Assembly: GCA_001305055.1 (NCBI GenBank)
Contig: BBZX01000006.1
Span: 124,001-188,000 of the forward strand
DNA: 64,000 nt
Direction of reading: 5' to 3'
Source of the DNA: Clostridia bacterium UC5.1-1C12
GTDB taxonomy: Bacteria; Bacillota_I; Bacilli_A; Erysipelotrichales; Erysipelotrichaceae
The notes below the pieces were generated by a model, which made no database searches, was not told the DNA's origin, and saw only the letters and a program-made list of their open reading frames with translations. This document shows, piece by piece, positions 42,689 to 57,485 of this stretch (position 1 is its first letter; every line of letters starts with the position of its first letter). The position numbers and the translations under genes were made by a program.

Positions 42689-43876
42689 TTATGTATTACA
42701 TGATATATGATCCCAGTCGCGGGTGTGATTTGCATTACACAGCCAGTTCAAAGCATAATGATGCTCCTGCACAACACCTGATTCAAGATTTTCTAATTCA
42801 ATATGTTTTAAGCGGGCTTCCACACATGTCCAATCATAATATAAAGCCCGGGTATGCATAGCTAAGATTTCACGCTTACTTCTAAGCTTTGCCGCCGTGC
42901 ATAATTCATCCAGGGTTGAATAAGAGCGGATTATCTTTGACATTTCACTGACATTGCACACACTCTCATAAGTGGCATCCAAGCCATTCAGGCCCAGTGC
43001 CCAAAGCAGTACCGCCGTGCATTCATAGCGCCATGAAAACTGAATTGCCGTCTGTTCATCAGCCGCCTCCATCACAAATGCCTTTTCCCGCTCACTTAAA
43101 GCATCAACAAATGCAAACTGATCTTTAAGTCTTGAAAATTCCTGTACTCCAAACGCATAACTGCCATCTTCCATTAATTCACACTCTGCCATTACGGATG
43201 TCGCGAAGATACAAAGCAGCCGTTTCGCAATGGTTTCAACACTTGGCAATTCAACCGTATCTAATGAAAGCTGAATCGGCAGCATCGAAGCAGCCGCCGG
43301 GTAACCGCGTTTTTTATTTCATCTGTCACATCAATAAATTCTGTTTATCTTCAGCATCATAAGCTCTTTCTTCATCTATAATACTTTGATGAGCAATCGG
43401 ACGCCATGTTTCTAAATCACTGGCACCCTCAATTGACAGTAAGAGCTTCGCATCAGGGGTGAACAAGGACATTGACGGATATAAAACGATCGAAGAAGTG
43501 CTGCGAGCTGCCGCAAATAAACATTCCATGATCGCATTCGTTCGTGCTTCCTGGGCATCAAGCTGAAAATTCACGCCGGTAATATGATTAAATAATTGAA
43601 TTTGCTGCATGACACTTGCCATTAGTTCATCATTATTTAAAGGTGCCTGCGCAAAAAATTCATCATGCCGTCTGTCTGCCCGCGCATTTCCTTCTCATCA
43701 TCAACTATATGCAGCTCAATTTCACTGTTATCCTGAAGAATCAGCTTCATGGCATGATCTGCAACGAGCACATCAATCGTAAAATCCGCAAATGCTTTTT
43801 TAAATGCTTCAAGGATCAAATCATCATTTTTAATCACACTGTATAAAGTTATAACCGCATCTTGCCGCTCACTCAT
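42689..43876 (-). CDS. DUF4272-family protein (three frame breaks)
   Basis: About 396 residues from ATG 43876. The C-terminal 200 residues match DUF4272: FSWRYECTAVLLWALGLNGL, EILAMHTRALYYDWTCVEARL, VVQEHHYALNWLCN and DWDHISCNT. Frames join by adding a base at 43653-43658 (AAAAAA), near 43329-43331, and at 43310-43315 (TTTTTT). Fused N-terminal regions like this occur in the family, so a single gene is preferred; two cistrons with a GTGA overlap (GTG 43329) remain possible. No enzyme motif is seen. It starts in an ATGA overlap with the SUFU gene. Confidence 0.7.
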
Positions 43877-44701: not shown

Positions 44702-45013
44702 TTATTTACTAAACTGACGGCACATTTCAATCATTTCAAGCGCCATGATTTTAATCGTTTCAGCACTCATGATCTGATCCTCAGCATGCAGCAGAAGTAA
44801 GGTTACATCTGTCTTATTGCCATTTGCTTCATTCGTAATCAGTTCAGCATGCGCCTGATGTGCATTCACAAATTCCTTTTCACCATCTTGAATCAACTGT
44901 TCAGCCTTTTCAAAATCACCTTTGCGGGCAATCTGCATCGCCTCGATAAAACAGCTTCTTGCGGCGCCAACACCGGCAATTATTTTAAAACAAATCATTT
45001 CTAAACCTTCCAT
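44702..45013 (-). CDS. PTS lactose/cellobiose-family EIIA component
   Basis: A 103-residue helical protein of the EIIA-Lac class. LLLLHAEDQIMSAETIK places the phosphorylated His at residue 76, and GAARSCFIEAMQIARKGDFEKAEQLI and HQAHAELI match the trimer helices. It takes phosphate from HPr and passes it to EIIB. The only EIIB and EIIC of this class in the window lie 10 kb away at 54944-56610, in another operon with the same operator. GGAGGC precedes the ATG. Confidence 0.93.
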   Translation of the reverse strand: MEGLEMICFKIIAGVGAARSCFIEAMQIARKGDFEKAEQLIQDGEKEFVNAHQAHAELITNEANGNKTDVTLLLLHAEDQIMSAETIKIMALEMIEMCRQFSK

Positions 45014-45027
45014 GGTTCTTGCCTCCT

Positions 45028-46114
45028 TTATTGAATAAACCCAAAGATATTTTCATAAGCAATCATGCTTACTAATTTCATTTCTTCCTCATTTAAATGT
45101 CCCGCCAGATTCCGATCGCCAGTATTAGGTATCGGTTTCAATATGATCTGCAATTCAGCGCGGTAATGACTCAGTGCATCATTCACAATGACCACATCAC
45201 CCACCTCAAACATTGCTTTATCGCAGACTCTTCGCGGTATCGAAGCATGATGATATTTCATTCGCGAATCAACAGTGCGGATCAATATATCACTGCTGTC
45301 TGTCCGGCGGTTATGCAGACAGTCAAACACGATTCTTTTTTCCGTTTCAGTAATTGTGTCATCTAAATCAATTTTAACTGTCACTTTATTCGGATCAGCA
45401 GCCGCCATCGCTTTTAGTTCTGCCTCACTTGCATAAGCATTGCCGATCAATACATCGTCGATTTCACGGGTTGCGTATAAATACCGAGTCTGCCAGCTTA
45501 TTGCTTTATCCCGGCACAGCTCAAGTCGGCAAGCCTTCATAAACCGGCCAAGGCCCGAATGTGTTTTCTTCATTTGAACTGACAAAGGCAGCATTCGTTA
45601 AGTTTAATGTTTTTGTTTTACTATTGAAAAAATGAAATCTTTCTTCACTTAGACCGCTGTAACGCATCGGATAGAAATTATGACAGATCGTCATATTATG
45701 CGGATTCGCGCCTTTTTCAATCATGCGGTCAAGATTCAGATACTGTGAACCGTTAAATTCAATCTGTATGCCATAGGGATTCAATGTTAACGCGATATCC
45801 TCTAAATCACTGAAATGACCATCCATTCGGATAATGTCTACACCCATAGCTTTGAAGACCTTTAAGTTAGTCGGATCAGCACCCAGCTTTTTAAATATCT
45901 GCGGATTCGTGTCTGCAGAAACTATCATGCCCAACCGATGAGCCCGTGTACAAAGATCGCTGAACCCCTGAATAATCGTTTCAGCTTCACCCGCTGATGA
46001 AAGCAGACAGGTAAACAGACGTGTAAAGCCATAGCTGGCCGCCAGACGCATATAAGCGTCATCTTTTTCCTTAGTGGAATGCTGAGGATAAATGGATATA
46101 CCTAATCGATGCAT
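45028..46114 (-). CDS. mupG: 6-phospho-N-acetylmuramidase-like protein, MupG/DUF871 family (frame break)
   Basis: About 363 residues. MHRLGISIYPQHSTKEKDDAY, GFTRLFTCLLS, VDIIRMDGHFSDLEDIALTL, ICHNFYPMRYSGLSEERF, GPWPVYEGLPT and REIDDVLIGNAY follow the DUF871 (GH170) order. Near 45530 two bases appear to be missing, restoring EGLPT-LELCRD, the usual GLPTLE motif. The founding member cleaves MurNAc-6-phosphate-GlcNAc, taken up by a PTS, inside the cell. Other members may use other phospho-disaccharides. ATG 46114 overlaps cutC by 13 bases. Confidence 0.85.
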
Positions 46115-46869
46115 TCTTGATCCTCCGCTTCTCTGATAATATTCACTAATTCCTTAACTGCCGTTTCAGCAACCACATCATAATCTAACTCGTGATGATA
46201 AGCATAGCTGACCATGCCGTTATCAGTTGTCGGATCATTGACCCACGCTTTAGCACTTGAATGCACTTGGCTGACACCGCTTGTTTTAATAAATTCCACA
46301 GCGTTATGCGCCTTAATGCCGCTGCCAGCGAGAATCTCAATTTGATCACCATAGACACTCTGCAGCTCATGAATCAATTCCTTACCCGCTATGGCTGTGG
46401 GGGCTAAACCGCTCGTTAATACACGATCAATTCCGCATTCAATCAATTGATTGATCGCTTGTTTCGCATCCTTACCACAATCAAAGGCACGATGGAATAC
46501 CGCTTCACGCTCTGTACCATATGATTTAATCAGTTCAACCATCCGTTTTGTCAGATTTAGATCAATAGCGGCATCTGCCTTTAAAAAGCCAAACGCCAAG
46601 CCATCACTGCCTGCCTCTAACAGCGCCTTGGCATCTTCAAAAATACATTCGATTTCATCATCGTTATAACAAAAGCCAGCCCCTCTTGGCCTTACCATGC
46701 AGATTACCGGCAGGCTCACATCACGTTTAACCAGCTTCAAAGTTCCGATGCTGGGTGTCAAACCACCCATAAACAAAGCAGAATTAAGTTCAATCCGATC
46801 CGCCTTGCCGTTTTGCGCCATCAGTGCATCATGATAGCTTCCGCAGCAAATTTCAACTAATGTTTTCAT
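46102..46869 (-). CDS. cutC: CutC-family protein
   Basis: About 255 residues forming a TIM-barrel of the CutC family: LVEICCGSYHDALMAQNGKADRIELNSAL, GGLTPSIGTLKLV, VMVRP-type RPRGAGFCY and AVFHRAFD, with VLTSGLA and EILAGSGI later. CutC was named for copper homeostasis, but its presence in sugar and peptidoglycan-salvage operons suggests a metabolic role. ATG 46869 is chosen; GTG 46878 is possible. It overlaps the asparaginase stop region and the MupG start, so the operon is tightly coupled. Confidence 0.88.
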   Translation of the reverse strand: MKTLVEICCGSYHDALMAQNGKADRIELNSALFMGGLTPSIGTLKLVKRDVSLPVICMVRPRGAGFCYNDDEIECIFEDAKALLEAGSDGLAFGFLKADAAIDLNLTKRMVELIKSYGTEREAVFHRAFDCGKDAKQAINQLIECGIDRVLTSGLAPTAIAGKELIHELQSVYGDQIEILAGSGIKAHNAVEFIKTSGVSQVHSSAKAWVNDPTTDNGMVSYAYHHELDYDVVAETAVKELVNIIREAEDQECID

Positions 46870-46870
46870 C

Positions 46871-47821
46871 CTATTCACTCAGCGGCGCCATGCGTGTCTG
46901 CATATAATTATTCAGCCATTCCTCACTCGCTAATTCATGAATACATTTGCCGTCAACATTTTTTACTAAATATACCGCCGGTGTTTCTCCCTCTCTGCAT
47001 ACCGCAAAGGAGAAGCCTTCAATATTCGTTGCCACACCGTATTCACCTTTATTATTCATTGCCACAACACTCAGATCACCAGCCTTGCCGCGGCGCTTTT
47101 TCAATTCAGCATCTAAATTGTTGACCGCAATTTCACAGGCCGCCTGCGGATGATGACCTTCCTTCATCAAGCGAACGATTTCATAAGAAATACAGCCCTT
47201 CATCAAATCCTCGCCAAGTCCGGTCGCACTTGCGCCGCCGACTGTAGAATCAGCGTAAAAACCGCTGCCGCTGATCGGTGAATCACCGACTCTGCCTTTT
47301 TTCTTCATGAATAAGCCTGAGGTGGAAGTACCAACCACCATCTTACCGTGCTGATCCAAGGCTACGACACCTACTGTATCATGACCGATATAAGGGCGCA
47401 GCTCCTGAGCTGTTTCCTTTACCCGCTTGCGATAATGAATCTTAGCCCGATCCGATAACATATTCTTACGTTCAAAGCCTTCCTTATGCGCAAACTTTTC
47501 TGCGCCTTCACTTACCAGCATGCAGTTAACTGATTCAGCGGATAAGCGCTTTGCCACTTTGATCGGATTTGCGAAATCCTTAATTGCCGCAACCGCACCG
47601 ATATCAAATGTATTGCCGTCCATATAAGCCGCGTCAAGCTCAACTTCCATTTCTTCATTCGGCAGACCGCCATAACCTACTGATTTATAATATGGAAAAT
47701 CTTCAATATCACATATTGCCTTTTCCAGTGCCTCTCCGGCAGCCGCTCCATGCTCAAGCATTTCACCGCCGGCTGTAATACCCTCAAGCGCCATACGCCA
47801 CGTCGCAATCATCGCCCACAT
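46871..47821 (-). CDS. N4-(beta-N-acetylglucosaminyl)-L-asparaginase-type Ntn hydrolase
   Basis: A 316-residue Ntn-hydrolase precursor with no signal peptide. It should cut itself between Asp148 and Thr149 (GHDTVGVVALD), making Thr149 the nucleophile; GTSTSGLFMKKKGRVGDSPISG and FYADSTVGGASATGLGED match glycosylasparaginases. These split GlcNAc-asparagine into aspartate and 1-amino-GlcNAc. Isoaspartyl-peptidase activity is an alternative. It is the first gene of the EIIA operon, behind operator, weak -35 and perfect -10, with AAGGAGG before the ATG. A cytoplasmic form implies uptake of a glycosylated amino acid or peptide. Confidence 0.87.
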   Translation of the reverse strand: MWAMIATWRMALEGITAGGEMLEHGAAAGEALEKAICDIEDFPYYKSVGYGGLPNEEMEVELDAAYMDGNTFDIGAVAAIKDFANPIKVAKRLSAESVNCMLVSEGAEKFAHKEGFERKNMLSDRAKIHYRKRVKETAQELRPYIGHDTVGVVALDQHGKMVVGTSTSGLFMKKKGRVGDSPISGSGFYADSTVGGASATGLGEDLMKGCISYEIVRLMKEGHHPQAACEIAVNNLDAELKKRRGKAGDLSVVAMNNKGEYGVATNIEGFSFAVCREGETPAVYLVKNVDGKCIHELASEEWLNNYMQTRMAPLSE

Positions 47822-47854: not shown

Positions 47855-47909
47855 ATTATAGGCTGATCAAGCCTTACAAACCGTTTTTCTCTTTCCTAAG
47901 ATTAGGAAA
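47855..47909 (-). promoter_or_regulatory. Operator and promoter of the glycosylasparaginase operon
   Basis: TTTCCT-AAGATT-AGGAAA lies at 47892-47909. Exactly 31 bases further, on the minus strand, is TATAAT (47860-47855). No good -35 box is seen at the right place (CGGTTT), as expected for a promoter that needs an activator. The operator matches four others in the window. Confidence 0.8.
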
Positions 47910-47915
47910 CCCTCA

Positions 47916-48797
47916 TTAATCCAAGGGCTGCTGATAGAAACCGCCAAAGAAATTCTCTGATTTATACACATTCACTAACAGCTGCGGATCAGCCTGTTTC
48001 ATCAAATAAACAATATCCTTAACCTCATAAGCTGATACAACGGTATGCAGCAGATAGTAACGCTTCTTAGAGAAACCGCCATAGCTTGGTGTAACCGTGA
48101 TACCATGCCGGTAATGATCGACATACACATCGACCACCGCTTCGGCATTTGATGTCGTAATCTGCATCGTAACCCGTTCATAGCGATGATAGAAGGCATT
48201 GACTGTCTGTGTAGAAATATATTGAAATAAAATAGAATAACCAGCATTCTGCCAACCAAACAAAACGCCAAAAATACACAGCATGATGCAATTAAATATA
48301 AACACCTGTGTCCAAATTGACTTGCCGATCTTATTGGATACATATAAAGCGATAAAATCCGTACCGCCGGTACTTGCATTTCCCTTTAGCGAAAGCAGGA
48401 TTGCAAAACCATACAGCACACCGCCCAGCATGCAGTTCAGCATGACATCATCAATCAGCGGTGTAAAATGGAACAGCTTTAAAAAGATGGATACACAAAA
48501 AAATTGAATACTTGAAAAAATCGTAAACTTTGTAGAAATACTTTTCAGACATAAGAGCGCTACCGGCACATTTAATAATATAATCATTAATGACACATCA
48601 AACTCCAGTCCGAATAAACCGCTGATACGGTTAATCAAAATAGCCAGACCGGTAAAGCCGCTTGACAGCAGATTACTGGCATTAATGAAAACCTGAATGA
48701 CATAGGTCTGCAGAAGCGCACTGGCAAGCACCATGATTAATGTATAGATACAGCGTGCCACAAAATTTTTTTTCAGAACCTTAATTTTCTCTGACAT
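47916..48797 (-). CDS. YitT-family membrane protein
   Basis: About 293 residues. The N-terminal two thirds contains five hydrophobic helices, with INRISGLFGLEFDVSLMIILLNVP and GNASTGGTDFIALYVS, matching the YitT (DUF161) family; the C-terminal part, RYERVTMQITTSNAEAVVDVYVDHYRHGITVTPSYGGF, read in pieces, is the soluble DUF2179-type domain. Function is unknown; homologues may sense or transport small molecules. ATG 48797 has AGGGGG upstream. It shares a divergent control region with the LicR-type regulator and carries the shared operator exactly 31 bases before its -10. Confidence 0.85.
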   Translation of the reverse strand: MSEKIKVLKKNFVARCIYTLIMVLASALLQTYVIQVFINASNLLSSGFTGLAILINRISGLFGLEFDVSLMIILLNVPVALLCLKSISTKFTIFSSIQFFCVSIFLKLFHFTPLIDDVMLNCMLGGVLYGFAILLSLKGNASTGGTDFIALYVSNKIGKSIWTQVFIFNCIMLCIFGVLFGWQNAGYSILFQYISTQTVNAFYHRYERVTMQITTSNAEAVVDVYVDHYRHGITVTPSYGGFSKKRYYLLHTVVSAYEVKDIVYLMKQADPQLLVNVYKSENFFGGFYQQPLD

Positions 48798-48822
48798 GAG
48801 CATAACCCCCTGATTCACCTGT

Positions 48823-48949
48823 ATTATAATCTCATTTAAGAATCACATGGAGAAATCCATTTCCTCTTGTTAGGAAATTCAAGAAACATCACCGCTTTTC
48901 CTAATAATAGGAAAAGACATTATAAAAATGGTTTTAATTATTATATAAT
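48823..48949. promoter_or_regulatory. Divergent promoters with two tandem operators
   Basis: TTTCCT-CTTGTT-AGGAAA core lies at 48860-48877 and TTTCCT-AATAAT-AGGAAA at 48897-48914, extended to a 9-base arm palindrome. The first is 31 bases from TATAAT on the minus strand (48828-48823, YitT gene). The second is 29 bases from TATAAT at 48944-48949 on the plus strand (regulator gene). This predicts autoregulation and control of the YitT gene. Confidence 0.8.
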
Positions 48950-48987
48950 AATGATAATGTAAGATTTTCATTAAAGGGGAAGATAGA

Positions 48988-50896
48988 ATGACAGATAGAC
49001 AAGAAAAACTGCTCCGTTTGCTTGAATCACAAAATACATGGATCACCGGCAAAGAACTCTCCCAGATACTTAAAGTATCTGATCGTACAATACGCAGCGA
49101 TATTGACGCTATGAATCATGAATATGATTTACCGCTGATTGAATCAAATATCCGCAAAGGCTATCGGCTGATCGTAGAAAATTATCATCAGAATCAGAAG
49201 CCTGTCGATACCTTGATTCCGCAGACACCTAAGGAGCGTTCTTCATTCATCTTAAAAAAATTACTCCTGACGAATCAAAAGCTGTCAATCATTGATTTAC
49301 TTGATGAAATCTTTATTTCTGAATATGCTTTAGATAATGATTTGAAAAATATCAAGGAATTTATTGATACCTTTGAGGGATTAAAGATTACCAAAAGCCG
49401 CAACCACCTTTATCTGGAAGGACCTGAACATTCCATCCGTGAATTATATAAACAGATGCTGCTTGAAGAGACGCAGAAGAACTTCTTAAATATTGATGAA
49501 ATAGCTTCAATTTATAAAAATTTTGATTTATTAAAATGCAAACAGGAGTTAGAGAAGATTCTTAAAAAGTACAGTTATGAAGTTCATGATGTCTCATTTC
49601 CCAGTCTGATTGTACATGTGGGAATATCTATTGACCGTATTTTCAATTTCCGTTATGTGGAATCAATGCGCAATACGGATGAAATTATGACTTCTATTGA
49701 ATATCGGATTGCCAAAGAATTCTATGAACGGATTTCTGCGCTGTATCAGACAGAGATCGTCGAAAGTGAAATTGTCATGCTGGCATTTTTGCTGATGGGT
49801 AAAAAAGGCACGAATTTCTCTTCAGAATCCTTAAAGGAATTTTTACCGGAAAATGTCACATGCAACATGCTGGCTCAAGAGATGCTTGAAACATCCTTAC
49901 AAACTTCGGCATCAATTTTACTGATGATGAGGGTCTGATTGTCGGTTTAACACTTCACCTGCAGTCTTTAATTGAAAGAGCCGCCAAGAATCTGGTAGCG
50001 AATAATCTTTATTTACAGGAGATTAAACGTAAATATCCTTTTGATTTTTGAATTAGGCGTATCTTGTGCCAATTATTTATCCAGACGGCTTGATCTGGAA
50101 GTATCTGAAGAAGAAATCGGCTTTATAGCCCTGCATTTAGGTATGGCTTATGAACGGCAGAATGCAAAGCGCAAATATAAAGCAATTGTGATCTTCCCAA
50201 CCACACAGGCAATTTCAAATGCGCCGATTCTGCGCATGCAGCGAATTTTTTCTGAATACATGGATATTATCGGTATTTTCAACTATTTTGAAGAAACGAA
50301 GATTCTCGAATTAAAACCTGATTTAATTATTTGTTCAGTACCGCTGAAGCATTCATTGGAGATTCCTACGGTTCAGATTTCAATTTTCTTTTCCAGAGAA
50401 GATGAGGCTTATATCTTGTCGGCATTAAATGCATTGGAACAAAAAGCATTTAAAGGAAGCTTATGCTGATTGTCTAAATCAGATGTTCAGACCGGAGCAT
50501 TTCTTTACCGACATGGAATTTAAAACCTCAGAAGAAGCAATTCGTTTCATGTGTGATGATTTAGTTCGTTCAAATGCTGTATCTGAACAATTCTTTGATT
50601 CAGTTATGGCCAGAGAAAGTATGTCCTCAACCTCATTTATACATCAGTTTGCGATACCGCATGCCCTTGATTCAACGGTTTATCAGGCTAACATCTCGGT
50701 TGTTATTTTACGCAAGCCAATTCGCTGGGGACCTTATGATGTGAAAATTGTATTCCTGCTGGCAGCAGGCAATACAGAAAGTGTAGCTATGAAGCTGTTC
50801 TTTGAGTGGATGATTAACCTTTCTAATGATGTATATAAAATGACCAGCTTGATGGAATGCAGCAATTATAATGAATTTATTAAATATTTCGATTAG
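48988..50896 (+). CDS. LicR/BglG-type PTS-responsive transcription activator (three frame breaks)
   Basis: About 636 residues. The start MTDRQEKLLRLLESQNTWITGKELSQILKVSDRTIRSDI, read as an HTH, is followed by a second HTH region, two PRD domains (the second around YPLIFELGVSCANYLS and EEIGFIALHLGMAYER), an EIIB-like domain (KAIVIFPTTQAISNAPIL, without the usual Cys) and a C-terminal EIIA domain with FAIPHALDSTV, where the His is phosphorylated. Breaks lie near 49895-49896, 50038-50043 and 50454-50456. This architecture is that of activators that read PTS phosphorylation. GGGGAAG precedes the ATG. It is the likely binder of the TTTCCT-N6-AGGAAA sites. Confidence 0.87.
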
Positions 50897-50897
50897 T

Positions 50898-50921
50898 CAG
50901 TGCCTAGGCGCTGGCTTTTAT
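50898..50921 (+). terminator. Terminator of the LicR-type regulator gene
   Basis: CAGTGC (50898-50903) pairs with GCGCTG (50908-50913) around CTAG, followed by GCTTTTATT. It starts directly after the stop codon. Confidence 0.75.
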
Positions 50922-51106
50922 TATAAATAAGCACATGCGCTTATGCCTATTTTCTGATTTCATTAATAAGGGAAGAATATCTAAAGGATCATCGGTATCA
51001 ACAGCATACTGAGCCCTTCCCTTTACGTTGTTTAACAATGTCAGTGTATCACGATTCCGTTAAGCTGCCGATGCTTATACTAAAGACTTGCTTATATCTA
51101 AGCATT

Positions 51107-51133
51107 AAAAAACTGAATCTGAAGATTCAGTTT
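51107..51133 (-). terminator. Terminator of the EIIB-EIIC-peptidase operon
   Basis: AAACTGAATC (51110-51119) pairs with GATTCAGTTT (51124-51133); on the minus strand a T run follows (51112-51107). It lies 9 bases after the M20 dipeptidase stop. The 185 bases between this and the regulator terminator hold no gene that I can see. Confidence 0.88.
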
Positions 51134-51141
51134 GTTCATGA

Positions 51142-52260
51142 TTACCAAGGTTTAATATTTTTATCCATCTGTGACAGTTTATACAATGACCAAGCATATA
51201 CTTTGGCGCATGTTACCAAATCATCGATATCAATCCATTCATTCGGCTGGTGAGCGATCCCCACTTGTCCCGGGAAGCTAGGTCCATAAGGAATGATGGT
51301 CTGACAAACATGTGCATAAGTGCCGCCGGTCGTTGTCGTTGGCTTCACAGTGCTGCCCATAACTTGCGCATAAGCCTCACTCATGGTCTGAACCAGCCAG
51401 CAGTTTGGATCATGGAGGACAACACCGCTGTCGCTGATTAGTTCAACTTTCATACCAGCCGCTTTGCTGCGGATCTGATTAATAATGGCAGTCATATCGC
51501 ACGTTGGATAACTGAGCGCAAATTGAATACCGAGCTGATCATCGTCAAGAATCAAATTCTTGCCGCGGAGTATCATTTCCCCAAAATGCTGATCACTGAC
51601 ATTGATGCCAAGGCGATCACCGTTTGCTTTGGCATTCATGAAATATTCATTGATAAAGGGAACCGCTGACTCTTTACTGCCAATAACCCGCACGACTGCG
51701 CGGCCACGTTCACCATAGATTGCCGGAAATTTATTATCCGGAGTAAACCCCATTAGTGGTGCTTTTTCATGTTCCAGATAATAACGGCAGTCAGCCATGC
51801 CGGTTTCTTCATTTGTACCAAAAATCACACGAATCGGTATGTTTGGTTTAATGCCTAACTTCTTTAATGCCAGCATGCCATAGAAAGCCGCAAATAAAGG
51901 GCCTTTATTATCCAATGCACCGCGTCCCCAGATACGATTCTCAGCGACTGTCGCAGAAAAAGCCGGATAGCGCCAGCCATCGCCAATCTCCACGACATCA
52001 AGATGTCCCATGACGCCGATATAGCTTTCACCTTCACCATACTGTCCGTAGCCCATATAGCCATCGACATTTTTAGTAATCAGCCCTTCCCGCTCGGCAA
52101 TTGATAACGCTTTTAAAAGCGCTTCATTGACACCCGCACCAAACGGCATGCCAGGCTTTGCCTCACTTCGCTGTGAATCAATCTGTACCACTGTACAGAT
52201 ATCCTCAATCATCTGATTCTTTAATTCATCAATCATCGCAAACAATTGTTCTTTTTCCAT
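51142..52260 (-). CDS. M20-family dipeptidase, PepV-like
   Basis: About 372 residues, shorter than typical PepV (about 470). IGVMGHLDVVEIGDGW gives the first His and Asp metal ligands, WGRGALDNKGPLFAAFYGML the bridging Asp, and IFGTNEETGMADCRYYL the catalytic Glu pair; GTYAHVCQTIIPYGPSFPG is near the C-terminus with the last His after it. It hydrolyses short peptides in the cytoplasm. ATG 52260 follows GAGGAACCT. It is the last gene of the PTS-peptidase operon, 10 bases after the M42 stop. Confidence 0.9.
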   Translation of the reverse strand: MEKEQLFAMIDELKNQMIEDICTVVQIDSQRSEAKPGMPFGAGVNEALLKALSIAEREGLITKNVDGYMGYGQYGEGESYIGVMGHLDVVEIGDGWRYPAFSATVAENRIWGRGALDNKGPLFAAFYGMLALKKLGIKPNIPIRVIFGTNEETGMADCRYYLEHEKAPLMGFTPDNKFPAIYGERGRAVVRVIGSKESAVPFINEYFMNAKANGDRLGINVSDQHFGEMILRGKNLILDDDQLGIQFALSYPTCDMTAIINQIRSKAAGMKVELISDSGVVLHDPNCWLVQTMSEAYAQVMGSTVKPTTTTGGTYAHVCQTIIPYGPSFPGQVGIAHQPNEWIDIDDLVTCAKVYAWSLYKLSQMDKNIKPW

Positions 52261-52270
52261 AGGTTCCTCA

Positions 52271-53332
52271 CTAAGCGCAGATCGATTCAAAGGTCTGCTG
52301 ATCCATCGCACATAAGATATAAGTCAATAAATCTACACAAGCCTCAAGATCCTGCTTATGAATGATCGACTGATTCGTATGCATATAACGAATCGGAATT
52401 GATAATGTCATATTAACGATGCCTTCAAAACTTTTATGAATATTGCCTGAATCCGTACCACCGCCGTTAAATACCGCATATTGATAAGGAATCCCCTGTT
52501 CCTTACATACCTTTTCTACATAGCGGATTAAGCCGCGATGATAAACGGTATTGGAATCCAGCATCGAGATAACGACACCGCCGCCCAGCTTGCAGCTGTT
52601 TGTATTGGCAGGTGTATCGCCTGCCAGTGTTGTATCAATCGCAAAGGCAAGATCCGGATGCATCAGATCGGTACTTGTACGGGCACCGCGCAGTCCCGGT
52701 TCTTCCTGTACTGTACAGGCGAAACTCAGCGGTACATGTTTCTTCCCCCTTAATCTTTCCAACACATAAAGGCCCACCGCGCAGCTTGCGCGATTATCAA
52801 AAGCCTTGCCGGCCAGATAATTGGGATTATTCATCACTCTGAAATTCATATCAGGTACCACCATATCGCCGATTCTGATTCCCAGCGCTTCAGCTTCTTT
52901 CTTGTCAGCAACCCCTAAATCAAGATAGATTGCTTCCATCGCCAAGGTCTTAGCCCGCTGCTCAGAAGGCATGCCATGGGTTGCCGGGCTGCCGATAAAA
53001 CCTTTAATCTTTTGACCATCTTGAGTGATTACATTAAAATCATGCCCCGGCAGCATATGCGTCCACCAGCTCCCCACCGGCATCAATCGAAGAGTTCCGC
53101 TTTCCTCTATATCCTTCACAAAAAAGCCAACCTCATCTGCATGCGTCGCCAGCATGGTTTTAGGACCTGTTTCATCATCCCCCTTACTCCCAATCACTGA
53201 CCCAAGACCATCATGGAGCACACGATCCACATACGGCTGCATATATGCTTCAAGCTGTGAACATACCGCTTCCTCACAAGAGGAAATACCGGCTGCCTCA
53301 CTTAATGTTTTTAATATTTCCAGATCAATCAT
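52271..53332 (-). CDS. M42-family metallo-aminopeptidase (intact active site)
   Basis: About 353 residues. All five metal ligands expected for M42 enzymes are visible: His64 in LATHADEVGF, Asp in GKAFDNRASC, the Glu pair in VQEEPGLRGA (catalytic Glu and metal Glu), Asp in FAIDTTLAGD, and His in IRYMHTNQS. The enzyme forms large oligomeric shells that trim peptides in the cytoplasm; FrvX-type members sit in PTS operons. ATG 53332 overlaps the stop of the M42-like gene before it. Confidence 0.93.
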   Translation of the reverse strand: MIDLEILKTLSEAAGISSCEEAVCSQLEAYMQPYVDRVLHDGLGSVIGSKGDDETGPKTMLATHADEVGFFVKDIEESGTLRLMPVGSWWTHMLPGHDFNVITQDGQKIKGFIGSPATHGMPSEQRAKTLAMEAIYLDLGVADKKEAEALGIRIGDMVVPDMNFRVMNNPNYLAGKAFDNRASCAVGLYVLERLRGKKHVPLSFACTVQEEPGLRGARTSTDLMHPDLAFAIDTTLAGDTPANTNSCKLGGGVVISMLDSNTVYHRGLIRYVEKVCKEQGIPYQYAVFNGGGTDSGNIHKSFEGIVNMTLSIPIRYMHTNQSIIHKQDLEACVDLLTYILCAMDQQTFESICA

Positions 53333-54368
53333 AGCATACCCCATAGCCGAAGCTTTCGATGTCCTCACTGCTTAAGCCTGATAAATATTTTACTAATTCA
53401 TTTTTTAAACATTCCGCATCATTTAGATCGGCCAAGATATGATTGCTGCCAAGATGACTCATGGCAATACCGAGTGACAGCGTTGGCGTTCCCTTTAATG
53501 TCTTATGAATAAATGAACCATCATTGCCATAGATGCCAAGATATTCCTGACAAGGCTTTACCTTATCCATAAAATCATGAAGCAGGCGTTTGCCAGGCAG
53601 CATCTGCTTATCATAAACTCCCACCGTAACACCTTTACCGCGTTGGGCAGCCGGCTGTGAGTTGGCGGTATCAAAACCAGTCAATACCAAAGCCGCATCT
53701 GGCTGTATCACATAGGTTGCGGTCTTACTGCCACGCCAGCCGATTACCGACTGTGCAATACCGCCCATCGCTAAATGATAATCAAGCTCACTCTCCTGCA
53801 GCGCTTGCGATAATTCAATCATCACCTCAAGCATTAAACGGTTATTTAATGCCTTCCCCATTGCACAATGTTCATTCAGCATTGTGAAATCACCTTTGAT
53901 TAATGCTAAATCACCAATTGTAAATGTATTGCATGCTTCTTCATAACCCGTTCCCATATCCAAGATCAAGTCTTCCATCTTTATCTGATTCGCTGCTGAT
54001 TCCATGAATTTGATTTTATCGCAGCCAATGATACCGGTGAAGCATTGATGCTCTCTTGTATATACGCAAACCTGCTGATGTAAAAGACTAGCCGGTGACA
54101 ATGCTTCAAGCGGCACAAATTTTAATTTTCCGTCAGGCAGAATCTCACTGACCATTAAACCTTCTTCATCAAGACTTGCCGCCAGCATCAGTGTTTTTGC
54201 CTTTGGATTCCGGCTGAGTTTTAGTGCAAACAGAGAACCCAGACGATCGCTCACCCATTCATCTGCAATCAAATTCTTTTTTAATAAAGCTCTGACATCC
54301 TGTTCCTCACCGCTCACACCCATCGCATTGACTAAAGCCTCAAGCCGTTCAATATACTGTTTTTTCAT
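53325..54368 (-). CDS. M42-like paralogue without metal ligands (probable pseudoenzyme)
   Basis: About 347 residues, clearly related to its downstream neighbour and similar in length, but the active-site positions differ: the metal His becomes Ser65 (LAASLDEEG), GKAFDNR becomes GKALNNR, the Glu pair VQEEPGLRG becomes AQSVIGWRG, the next metal Asp becomes Thr, and the final metal His becomes Gly (MSHLGSN). The frame is unbroken, so it is kept as a protein. A role as a partner or regulatory subunit of the active M42 peptidase, or a peptide-binding protein, is inferred. ATG 54368 has AAAGGAC upstream. Confidence 0.85.
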   Translation of the reverse strand: MKKQYIERLEALVNAMGVSGEEQDVRALLKKNLIADEWVSDRLGSLFALKLSRNPKAKTLMLAASLDEEGLMVSEILPDGKLKFVPLEALSPASLLHQQVCVYTREHQCFTGIIGCDKIKFMESAANQIKMEDLILDMGTGYEEACNTFTIGDLALIKGDFTMLNEHCAMGKALNNRLMLEVMIELSQALQESELDYHLAMGGIAQSVIGWRGSKTATYVIQPDAALVLTGFDTANSQPAAQRGKGVTVGVYDKQMLPGKRLLHDFMDKVKPCQEYLGIYGNDGSFIHKTLKGTPTLSLGIAMSHLGSNHILADLNDAECLKNELVKYLSGLSSEDIESFGYGVCYD

Positions 54369-54386
54369 TAGTGTCCTTTCTTTACA

Positions 54387-54413
54387 AAAACCAGCCGTTG
54401 CTCGACTGGTTTT
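54387..54413 (-). terminator. Intra-operon hairpin before the M42-like gene
   Basis: AAAACCAG (54387-54394) pairs with CTGGTTTT (54406-54413). On the minus strand TTTTTG follows. It may reduce transcription from the PTS and GrdB-like genes into the three peptidase genes. Confidence 0.6.
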
Positions 54414-54417
54414 CATT

Positions 54418-54942
54418 TTAGTAACAATTTCTAGTTTTTATTCCTTCTACGTGTTCCGGATGATTCACTTCTGCATCGATTAATTCACATAAATTCTCAA
54501 GTGAATCCTTTAAACCGATACCACCCTTTTTAGGCATTTTCACAATTGGAATCAATGACGCGTACTGATCAATGGTTGTCGAGTTTTCCGCTGACATCAT
54601 CGCGCATGATCTGATTGTGGTATTTTCCAGTATGGATTTAGCACACAACGCACACATAAGTGAATACTCTTCGAAATTAAAGCCAGGTCCGCATACAACA
54701 TAATCAGGGTTTAGCTTCTTAGCCATTGCGGTCATTTTTTTCACTACTTCTTCCTGATGATCTTTGAAATAGCCAACTCCGCAATATAGAGTTGCGATAA
54801 CCTCAGCCCCGATCTTTTTGAAATATGGCTCCATCATCTCACCGGTACCGATGATACCCTTTTTAGCTGTAAGCTCAACATTCGGATTACTCTTACCGCC
54901 GGCACCTGCAAGACCTGAGTCAAATATCAATAGGACTTTCAT
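54418..54942 (-). CDS. Stand-alone GrdB-like N-terminal domain protein
   Basis: A 174-residue cytoplasmic protein resembling the N-terminal region of glycine/betaine/D-proline reductase B subunits: TLYCGVGYFKDH (compare CGDNYF), DYVVCGPGFNFEEYSLMCALCAKSI (compare GPAFNAGRYG) and SCAMMSAENSTTID (compare TAMxxENPG). The selenocysteine-containing C-terminal part of GrdB is absent and no in-frame TGA is present. It is one base from the EIIC stop, within a PTS operon. The function is unknown; it could bind an amino-acid-like carbonyl substrate. Confidence 0.7.
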   Translation of the reverse strand: MKVLLIFDSGLAGAGGKSNPNVELTAKKGIIGTGEMMEPYFKKIGAEVIATLYCGVGYFKDHQEEVVKKMTAMAKKLNPDYVVCGPGFNFEEYSLMCALCAKSILENTTIRSCAMMSAENSTTIDQYASLIPIVKMPKKGGIGLKDSLENLCELIDAEVNHPEHVEGIKTRNCY

Positions 54943-54943
54943 A

Positions 54944-56285
54944 TTACTCTAAAACGAGATCATCAAATGAAAGATCATCAAGTTCATCTGATTCATTCGC
55001 TGTAATTGCTTCTTCTTCCAAATATTTGCGGTCAAGCATTTTCAGGAATGGGAAGTAGATTGCCATATCCATCGCTAATTGTGCAAGCTGGAACAGTGAA
55101 GCTACAAAGCTTCCGGTAACCAGCCAGCCTGAGAATAAGATGGGTGTTGTCCATGGCAGCTGCACACCGGCAGTAATCGGCAGGATACCAATCGATGTCG
55201 CAATCGTAGCCGTGATTGTATTTAATACTGGTACGAAGATAAACGGCACCGCCATCAATGGATTTAATACGATAGGCAGACCGAAGATGATCGGTTCATT
55301 GATACCGAAAATCGCTGCCGGCAGAGAAAGTCTTCCTAATGTTTTAATGCGGTTTGATTTACCAGTAAAGGCCATCAGAATAACTAAACCTAAGGTAGAA
55401 CCGCCGCCGCCATAGTTACAGAAGAAATCAGAGAAAGCAGAAGTGAAGACATTGGTCATTGCGATACCGGCCTTAGCTGCTTCATAGTTTTCTTGAGTCA
55501 GTACCTTATGAATCGGCGCAAAATGGTATTTGTAACCGCTGGTCCATTAATACCAAAGAACCAGAATAAAGTTGATAAGAACTGATAAATGACTTCAAAT
55601 AGATTGGAACGTCCAAGACCTACTAACGGTGCCTGCAAGACTTCATAGATGAACGCATGAGCACTGCCGTAAGCCGTATTCGTGAAAATAATATTTACAA
55701 GAAAGAAGTAACCATTGCGAAAGCAGCTGGAATCAATGCCGCAAAGGAATCCATAACCGCCGGCGGAACACCGTCAGGCAGCTTGATAACCAGTTTCTTG
55801 CGCATTGCCCAAGCAAAGATTGACACCGAAAGAATTGCTGTAATCATAGATAAGAACATACCTGATGTACCAAGATTACCGAAAGAGAAACCGCTGAATG
55901 CCTTACCGGCTTCATTTACATAAGCAATATGTGTCTTTGGTGTGATAATCAGGAAGCAAGTCAGTGCAACTACACCGCCGGCAATCTTATCGACGCCTTT
56001 TTCACGGGCATAACAATAACCGATTGATAAGACACCTGTCAGCGCTACAACATCAAAGGTAGATGAAGTAACTGCGTCAAGATAAGTTTCCCAGCCTTCA
56101 CCAAATACACTGGCAACCATTTCTGACCAGCCAGTGATCGGGAAATTGGATATTAATAAGAATATTGAACCTACGATTACAATTGGTACTGTAATCAGGA
56201 AACCATCACGAATCGCACTTAATATTTTGTTTTTAGATAAAGCATCAGCAACCGGTGATAAGTATTTTTCTAATTTATCAAACAT
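54944..56285 (-). CDS. PTS lactose/cellobiose-family EIIC component (two frame breaks)
   Basis: About 447 residues, the normal length for this class. MFDKLEKYLSPVADALSKNKILSAIRDGFLITVPI, read in pieces, begins the typical EIIC N-terminus; FGINGPAVTNTIFAPIH and SLPAAIFGINEPIIFGLPIVLNP are the substrate-channel motifs. Frames join by adding one base at 55702-55704 and one at 55520-55523. It moves a disaccharide-like substrate across the membrane and works with EIIB just upstream and EIIA at 44702-45013. Confidence 0.9.
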
Positions 56286-56305
56286 TTATTTCGCCTCGCT
56301 CTCTT

Positions 56306-56610
56306 TCATTTTTTGATAGCGGCTTTCAATACCCGTTCCCCATTCATTGAACCATAGTCTGTACTGTCAATGACAAAAATTGGGTGCCCCAAATGCCCAT
56401 ATCTTTCGACAACCTTTTCATACAGATATTTAACCTGCGGACCTAACAGAATGCAGTCCGGATTAAATTCTGCGATAATGTTGTCCATTTTAGAGTCAGG
56501 AAATGCTTTTACTTCAATTGGTAAATTGTGTTCTTCAGCTACTTTTGCATCTTGCTAGCTAACAATGAAGTAGACATCCCTGCATTACAAAATAAATAAA
56601 CTCTACGCAT
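56306..56610 (-). CDS. PTS lactose/cellobiose-family EIIB component (one frame break)
   Basis: About 101 residues. MRRVYLFCNAGMSTSLLASKM places the phosphorylated Cys at residue 8 in the P-loop-like CNAGMSTS motif of cellobiose-type EIIB. Adding one base in the TTTT at 56543-56546 joins it to VAEEHNLPIEVKAFP and the rest. AAGGAGGATATG precedes ATG 56610. It is the first gene of the operon, 20 bases before EIIC. Confidence 0.9.
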
Positions 56611-56637
56611 AATTCATATCCTCCTTTGGCTGATTCA

Positions 56638-56693
56638 AGTATATCTCAGCAAAGGAAGCGTTATCATCAATTCTGTTTCCGTGCATTAGGAAA
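56638..56693 (-). promoter_or_regulatory. Operator, promoter and cre-like site of the EIIB operon
   Basis: TTTCCG-TGCATT-AGGAAA (one mismatch to the shared operator) lies at 56676-56693, 32 bases from TATACT (56643-56638) on the minus strand. Between them, AGGAAGCGTTATCA at 56653-56666 matches 12 of 14 cre positions and would cover the -35 area. This suggests activation by the LicR-type protein and repression by CcpA. Confidence 0.7.
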
Positions 56694-56743
56694 TGGTAAA
56701 CCTGATTGCGGAAATCGGTTTCCTTACTTTTTTCCTTATATAA

Positions 56744-56776
56744 TAAAAAAGCTGACTTGATCGATTTGTCAGCTTT
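56744..56776 (-). terminator. Terminator of the RDD gene
   Basis: On the minus strand AAAGCTGAC (56776-56768 side reads GTCAGCTTT on plus) pairs with GTCAGCTTT, 9 base pairs around an 11-base loop, followed by a T run at 56750-56745. It lies 9 bases beyond the stop. Confidence 0.88.
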
Positions 56777-56785
56777 GATAATTAC

Positions 56786-57402
56786 TTATAATGCTTTCTG
56801 AACTTTGCCGGGAACATAAATATCTTCCACATGCGTGTGTGAAATCCTGTCATGAATCATTCGGCTTTGATCCTTATCTCTTAACGCGAGCAATAAGGAT
56901 AATACACAGATGACTGCTACCGGACCGCTCAGCAGCATGTCCATCATGCCTGTATCAAATGGCAGATATTTTGTAATCAGCAATGTTTTGAATGTTGATG
57001 TGAAGAAATAGAAGGTTCCTTCTAAAACGAGACAGCCAAGCACAAAACGTACCAGCATTGTTTTAAATGTGACCTCACTATGATCATCATGGAATACTTT
57101 GATCTGAAGCATTCGCTGGGCAGGTGTCTGACCGATCCAGATACGGCATGGCACCCAGACATAATAGAATAAGAAAATAAGAAACAGAACAGCCATCAGT
57201 ATCCATGCTTGAGCGCTTGTCATTCCGTTAAGATTATACTGTACCTCAATCTGTCCTTGATTGAAAAACCATAGCACAGTGAGATTGCGATATTAGCCAG
57301 TACACCGGATAAATACCAATCAATACCAAATGCCAATACTCTTCTTATAAAATAGCCGCCCCGGCTTGAATTATTCTTTACAACCATTTTTTTCTTTGCC
57401 AT
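56786..57402 (-). CDS. RDD-family membrane protein (one frame break)
   Basis: About 205 residues. GGYFIRRVLAFGIDWYLSGVLA carries the R..D motif of the first RDD helix, and WIGQTPAQRMLQIKV matches the GxTxGKxxxxIxV loop of the family, with more helices following. Adding one base near 57280-57285 joins the two frames. The function is not known; some RDD proteins act in ion exchange. GGAGG precedes ATG 57402. It has its own promoter with the shared operator and its own terminator. Confidence 0.82.
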
Positions 57403-57427
57403 AGTACATCCTCCAGCTTATGCTTCT

Positions 57428-57485
57428 ATTATAAACGAAACAAGCTGAAAACGCTTAACTGCAATTTCCTAGCATTAGGAAATTG
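57428..57485 (-). promoter_or_regulatory. Operator and promoter of the RDD gene
   Basis: TTTCCT-AGCATT-AGGAAA at 57465-57482, with arms extended to 10 bases each (57462-57485), is the best palindrome of the set. TATAAT lies exactly 31 bases away at 57433-57428 on the minus strand, with no good -35 box. Confidence 0.8.

Follow-up and report, generated by a model that had tools for sequence, protein, structure and literature searches.

What do the near-identical palindromes scattered over about ten kilobases of a contig of Clostridia bacterium UC5.1-1C12 control, and which protein acts on them? The window studied here is the whole stretch of 64,000 nucleotides (assembly GCA_001305055.1, contig BBZX01000006.1, positions 124,001 to 188,000 of the forward strand), in which an earlier note, made from the sequence letters, had pointed out five copies of TTTCCT-N6-AGGAAA close to a gene for a LicR-type regulator (48988-50896). 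Comparison with related genomes makes it very probable that the five palindromes are operators of this regulator and that it activates the promoters of a regulon around a phosphotransferase system (PTS). The site, its spacing from the −10 box, its co-occurrence with the regulator and the gene set behind it are well supported by this comparison.

The palindrome, its spacing and its regulator

The window was searched for TTTCCT-N6-AGGAAA with at most one mismatch, and the result was compared with 100 shuffles. All five positions reported by the earlier note were recovered (Table 1), four of them exact and the one at 56676-56693 with a single mismatch; a sixth match, also with one mismatch, lies at 53269-53286 inside the open reading frame (ORF) 52271-53368. 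Six matches compare with a mean of 0.20 in the shuffled windows, where the maximum was 3 and none of the 100 reached six. The five distances between palindrome and −10 box (31, 31, 31, 32 and 29 bp) were reproduced as well. In contrast, the regulator gene is not flanked by two copies as the note had it: those at 48860 and 48897 both lie upstream of it, in the region that separates it from the divergent YitT gene. The sequence TTTCCTAA is found in the distal half (read towards the promoter) of all five window sites; this asymmetry was rejected as a general rule, being weak or absent in relatives.

Genome-wide questions were put to the genome of the close relative Dielma fastidiosa JC13 (Erysipelotrichales; G001) and to other relatives. 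JC13 shares about 93% DNA identity with the window over 17 kb aligned around the sites, and it was the one genome-contig relative found for the first 316 residues of the regulator (98% identity). None of the five operators differs in sequence from its JC13 counterpart, although the four intergenic gaps contain 1 to 8 mismatches in their aligned parts.

We then looked at the spacing in relatives. In a set of 61 distinct sites with an inner A or T, the exact TATAAT boxes within 60 bp stood mostly at 31 or 32 bp: 25 of 31 with an inner gap of 6 bp, and 12 of 18 with one of 7 bp. This distance is kept for both inner gaps and is therefore fixed from the proximal half-site. Across 19 loci with 49 sites (two near-identical loci having been dropped), 28 exact TATAAT boxes were counted at 31/32 bp (compare with 0.16 expected), against a mean of 0.12 per other position. 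With one mismatch allowed, a box was present at 31/32 bp on 69 of 164 site sides, which collapse to 64 promoters. An extended −10 was seen in 7 of these 64, and their best match in the −35 region (2.48 of 6) was no better than in shuffled spacers (2.61), meaning that there is no −35 signal, in line with the poor −35 boxes noticed at first.

Regulon genes are also found at further places in genomes G141 and G208, and the site is present there too. In G141 it precedes an EIIA-EIIB-glycosylasparaginase-M20-CutC cluster and an M42 pair; in G208 it precedes glycosylasparaginase-M20-CutC, MupG and a second regulator/PTS copy. The eight sites at these extra places (two in L116, L117, four in L119, L120), none of which belongs to the sets used for the spacing statistics, all have an exact TATAAT at 31/32 bp on the gene side. 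Among the 13 sites at mapped further places, nine have an exact TATAAT at 31/32 bp and one a TATACT at 31 bp, and three have none (L118, L122 and L121:10201).

The pairing of site and regulator was studied with the intact JC13 regulator, which was searched against 294 genomes of the order and matched 71 of them at E up to 1e-60. One locus from each of the best 30 of these 71 genomes (38-100% identity, 3.5-4.9 kb each, including the close pairs L020/L021 and L043/L045) was compared with 20 loci of 5 kb chosen from the same list for their weaker matches, which are other PRD regulators of 26-32% identity. With no more than one mismatch allowed, TTTCCT-N6/7-AGGAAA was present in 27 of the 30 loci of the related regulators and in one of the 20 others, as would be expected if the adjacent LicR-type protein were the regulator, the candidate named at the outset. 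In two of the three loci lacking it (L041 and L044), a site with two mismatches is accompanied by TATACT at 32 bp; in the mapped case it lies before EIIB.

A genome scan had also been proposed; run as patterns on JC13 and relatives, it showed that looser patterns do not stand out from the background. The loose pattern was rejected as a genome-wide marker, JC13 having 27 places at up to one mismatch as opposed to 23 for the reversed pattern; exact loose-pattern places number seven, four of them at this locus. For the strict pattern, TTTCCTA-N4/5-TAGGAAA, with its reversal as control, 37 places were found in 18 of 20 regulator-bearing genomes (20 of the 71), compared with 4 for the control. Among the genomes having no regulator match (the first 20 listed of 223), there was one place, and 4 for the control. 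Regulon genes lie at 35 of the 37 places; the exceptions are a site in G208 that stands isolated and another within a second JC13 PTS operon. All three exact 6-gap places in JC13 are at this locus. At up to two mismatches the strict pattern fell below its control in JC13 (19 against 54, and 28 against 56), and this form was abandoned. A chance origin of the palindromes was rejected on the window shuffles, the strict-site genome counts and the −10 spacing counts. As a separate observation, genome G002, which gave no match for the regulator, has a perfect site before a carbamoyltransferase gene (L122:6054) with TATAAT at 27 bp.

Genes behind the operators and the possible substrate

Table 1. Operators, −10 boxes and genes of the predicted regulon (window positions).
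Feature	Position	Strand	Remarks
Operator TTTCCTAATCTTAGGAAA	47892..47909	-	before glycosylasparaginase-CutC-MupG-EIIA genes; identical in JC13
−10 box TATAAT	47855..47860	-	31 bp from operator 47892..47909
Operator TTTCCTAACAAGAGGAAA	48860..48877	-	before YitT gene; identical in JC13
−10 box TATAAT	48823..48828	-	31 bp from operator 48860..48877
Operator TTTCCTAATAATAGGAAA	48897..48914	+	before regulator gene; identical in JC13
−10 box TATAAT	48944..48949	+	29 bp from operator 48897..48914
Operator TTTCCTAATGCACGGAAA	56676..56693	-	one mismatch; before EIIB-EIIC-GrdB-peptidase genes; identical in JC13
−10 box TATACT	56638..56643	-	32 bp from operator 56676..56693
Operator TTTCCTAATGCTAGGAAA	57465..57482	-	before RDD gene; identical in JC13
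−10 box TATAAT	57428..57433	-	31 bp from operator 57465..57482
Putative PRD-type activator	48988..50896	+	HTH_11, Mga HTH, PRD, PTS_EIIA_2 (Pfam on window pieces); frame broken in window, intact in JC13 (635 aa)
YitT/DUF2179 membrane protein	47916..48818	-	domain match
Asparaginase_2 family	46871..47821	-	nearest solved structures of JC13 copy are glycosylasparaginases
CutC family protein	46102..46878	-	domain match
MupG (6-phospho-N-acetylmuramidase) family	45028..46114	-	frame broken in window; N-terminal piece scanned only
EIIA, lactose/cellobiose PTS	44702..45013	-	named on JC13 copy
EIIB, lactose/cellobiose PTS	56289..56610	-	ends approximate, by eye; frame broken in window; named on JC13 copy
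EIIC, lactose/cellobiose PTS	54944..56285	-	frame broken in window; model matches
GrdB-related protein without selenocysteine (NF041545)	54418..54942	-	named on JC13 copy
Aminopeptidase	53325..54416	-	aminopeptidase models on JC13 copy; presumably M42 type
Second aminopeptidase ORF	52271..53368	-	ORF list; presumably M42 type
M20 dipeptidase (PepV/Sapep type)	51142..52311	-	named on JC13 copy
RDD family membrane protein	56786..57402	-	frame broken in window; upper end by eye

Gene content was counted in the loci of 20 relatives (up to 20 kb, with two regulator pairs more than 98% identical), genes being named from the JC13 set only. The regulator was present in 20 loci, EIIC and RDD in 19, EIIB and the GrdB-like gene in 18, YitT and the glycosylasparaginase-like gene in 17, CutC in 16, EIIA in 15, M20 in 14, MupG in 8 and M42 in 6. 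With a mean identity of 68% across loci, the glycosylasparaginase-like protein is the most conserved of the gene set. In the mapped loci the operators precede the separate transcription units. An M3 oligopeptidase gene lies behind an operator in three relatives (L116:4060-5829, L072:4786-6546 and L084:663-2384) and did not turn up in the JC13 locus of 21 kb. M3, M20 and M42 genes thus stand behind operators, and the regulon is rich in peptidases.

Several genes whose frames are broken in the window (45028-46114, 48988-50896, 54944-57402 and 42689-43622) are intact in JC13 (L001), which suggests that the breaks are sequencing errors in the window's record, not real gene loss. Between the regulator and M20 genes JC13 also has an ORF of about 600 bp (L001:11965-12609, HAD-like by eye) that is missing in the window between 50896 and 51142.

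The Asparaginase_2 protein of JC13 matches glycosylasparaginase better than isoaspartyl peptidase (compare E 6e-56 with 1e-35). Its HDT, GRVGD and N-terminal Trp positions, which we take to be key glycosylasparaginase residues, are aligned, and the Thr after the cleavage site is present. Because glycosylasparaginase-like and PepV-like genes stand together here, with a link in Lactobacillus casei as precedent (see below), we tentatively propose, at somewhat less than even chances, that the PTS, the peptidases and the glycosylasparaginase-like enzyme serve the uptake and breakdown of N-acetylglucosaminyl-asparagine (GlcNAc-Asn) or short glycopeptides from N-glycoproteins. On this guess the PTS would take up the compound, the peptidases would trim it and the glycosylasparaginase-like enzyme would split it.

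The substrate could quite possibly be another one, namely an ordinary beta-glucoside or chitobiose, with the peptidases and the glycosylasparaginase-like enzyme as passengers or in a different role such as the recycling of peptidoglycan fragments with MupG. The JC13 copies of EIIA, EIIB and EIIC do fit lactose/cellobiose PTS models, MupG (in 8 of the 20 loci) points to amino-sugar disaccharides, and one relative has an LD-carboxypeptidase family gene in its locus; all of these weigh against GlcNAc-Asn. Against this reading stand the wide presence of the glycosylasparaginase-like and M20 genes in the counts above and the recurrence of both behind an operator elsewhere in G141 and G208. Moreover, no glycosidase besides MupG was named in these loci, where naming from the JC13 set alone could miss others. 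The full picture that we would draw for part of the Erysipelotrichales is speculative and ranks below an even bet: a PRD activator acting with rigid geometry on promoters lacking a −35 box, a PTS importing N-glycan-derived GlcNAc-Asn or glycopeptides in phosphorylated form, a glycosylasparaginase working on phosphorylated glycoasparagine, and CutC and the GrdB-like protein as pathway enzymes.

How the regulator may act on the sites

The regulator has the features of LicR/CelR-type proteins: an N-terminal HTH_11 and Mga helix-turn-helix (HTH), then PRD and a C-terminal PTS_EIIA_2, all matched on the window pieces. Histidines 210, 324, 383, 455 and 558 are invariant in 21 of 21 regulators, and at the regulator loci compared the linked PTS has a conserved operator and conserved spacing.

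Might another PRD regulator bind these sites, as their main partner or in addition to the adjacent one, for instance one beside a GH4-PTS operon elsewhere in the genome? Such an operon exists in D. fastidiosa (L121, G001:C8:35500-47500; GH4, EIIC), with three related palindromes, two of which have a −10 box at 31 bp (TATAAT and TATACT), and with its own HTH/PRD/EIIA regulator of 21% identity. The site may therefore not be private to the adjacent regulator, through cross-talk or a shared operator type. However, the sites follow the adjacent regulator in the locus comparison, with 27 of 30 loci as opposed to 1 of 20 for other PRD regulators, and main or shared binding by another PRD regulator is improbable.

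Other results also weigh against the reading as operators of this regulator. One of the 30 regulator loci (L037) has no site-plus-box even at two mismatches, and two of the 20 regulator-bearing genomes lack the strict site. The regulator's own −10 box in the window, at 29 bp, is outside the 31/32 rule. In the 49-site set, 24 sites have no exact TATAAT at 31/32 bp on either side and 25 have one on at least one side; some of the former have one-mismatch boxes, and part of the sites may be chance occurrences. Across 295 genomes of the phylum the strict pattern was found at 14 places in 11 genomes, as compared with 31 places for the reversed control; 5 of the 11 have the regulator, and of the other six the one inspected was G002 (see above). 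The pattern is rarer than its control and has, therefore, meaning only with its context.

The palindromes could also be repressor operators, which we consider very improbable. Palindromes near promoters are common repressor sites, and the regulator's own promoter carries one. However, the palindrome leaves the core promoter free, its end being about 31 bp upstream of the −10 box, and no −35 signal is seen in these promoters, which would suggest help rather than blocking. If the −10 box starts near −12, the centre of the site would fall near −52, one helical turn or so further upstream than the usual −41. Such a layout suggests an activator site and not that of a blocking repressor. The conserved spacing and the sites at the extra gene places are likewise consistent with the idea, put forward with the five sites, of an activator that sits directly upstream of RNA polymerase. 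A last reading, in which the protein encoded next to the sites acts on RNA as a BglG/SacY-type antiterminator and the palindromes are unrelated to it, can practically be dismissed: its homologues do bear the database name 'BglG family transcription antiterminator', but its N-terminal 316 residues gave HTH_11 and Mga and no Pfam match (E up to 0.001) to the RNA-binding (CAT) domain, and the sites, lying upstream of the −10 box, would not be part of any leader RNA. Despite those names, the protein looks like a DNA-binding PRD activator by its domains.

For the PRD activator and its operators we infer the following steps, from dimer and binding to activation and phosphorylation control. A dimer would bind TTTCCTA-N4/5-TAGGAAA with its centre some 52 bp before the transcription start and with 31/32 bp separating the proximal half-site from the −10 box, and would recruit RNA polymerase to promoters having a good −10 box and no −35 box. 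Its activity would be set by the cognate PTS through phosphorylation of the PRD and EIIA-like domains, by analogy with its family. The activator would turn on its own gene together with those for YitT, RDD, the PTS, the intracellular peptidases and the glycosylasparaginase-like enzyme. If so, a precise operator and promoter rule is available for a PTS activator common to many Erysipelotrichales, and the operator links CutC, the GrdB-like NF041545 protein, RDD and YitT, whose roles are uncertain, to one pathway.

Comparison with known systems

LicR of Bacillus subtilis, the activator of the lichenan operon, has the same domain order as the window regulator. LicR-like regulators are found beside lactose/cellobiose-type PTS in Peribacillus, Enterococcus gilvus and Listeria innocua. 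In seven named-plasmid loci with LicR-like regulators (24-28% identity), neither the regulator nor its PTS had the site beside it. A one-mismatch site was present elsewhere in the 12 kb of two of them, at a distance of about 4.8 kb and with TGTAAT, a weak box, at 32 bp in Niallia, and at about 3.6 kb with no box in E. gilvus. A universal LicR operator is thus not supported, given these loci and the single site in the 20 loci of other PRD regulators.

The operator of CelR in Streptococcus pneumoniae is reportedly YTTTCCWTAWCAWTWAGGAAA, that is TTTCC-N10-GGAAA before the cellobiose operon. It would have the same TTTCC/GGAAA ends as the window sites and a length of about 20 bp, with 10 bases between these ends, whereas here the site is 18-19 bp with 8 or 9 bases; CelR also controls a cellobiose locus, unlike the glycosylasparaginase/peptidase set. 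Given this likeness, the operator type is probably not new. The earlier note's remark that the site resembles that of no described PTS regulator was probably too strong, although in our literature search no paper was found with this motif or this regulon. Pneumococcal CelR is described as a PRD activator with HTH, two PRDs and EIIA and EIIB domains (PMC4324149), and conservation of its site among other streptococci is reported (PMC3585215).

Another PTS-controlled, DNA-binding PRD activator is MtlR, the mannitol activator of Bacillus, with HTH_11, a Mga-like HTH and an EIIA-like end (PMC8560693); the likeness to the window regulator is by domain make-up only, and the sugar differs. For the gene set the nearest parallel is the alf-2 cluster of L. 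casei, where the intracellular glycosylasparaginase AsnA2 is linked to the M20 peptidase PepV in the use of fucosyl-GlcNAc-Asn, PepV not being needed for growth on it (PMC6960285). Both loci combine a glycosylasparaginase, or in our case a protein like it, with a PepV-type M20 peptidase, whereas alf-2 has a major facilitator superfamily (MFS) permease, a fucosidase and a GntR-type regulator (AlfR2) where the window locus has a PTS and a PRD activator. If our guess at the substrate is right, the locus would represent PTS-based feeding on glycoprotein remains, parallel to the alf-2 route. Altogether, the system appears to be a variant of the known PRD-activator kind, with a strong case for its operator from the comparison of genomes.

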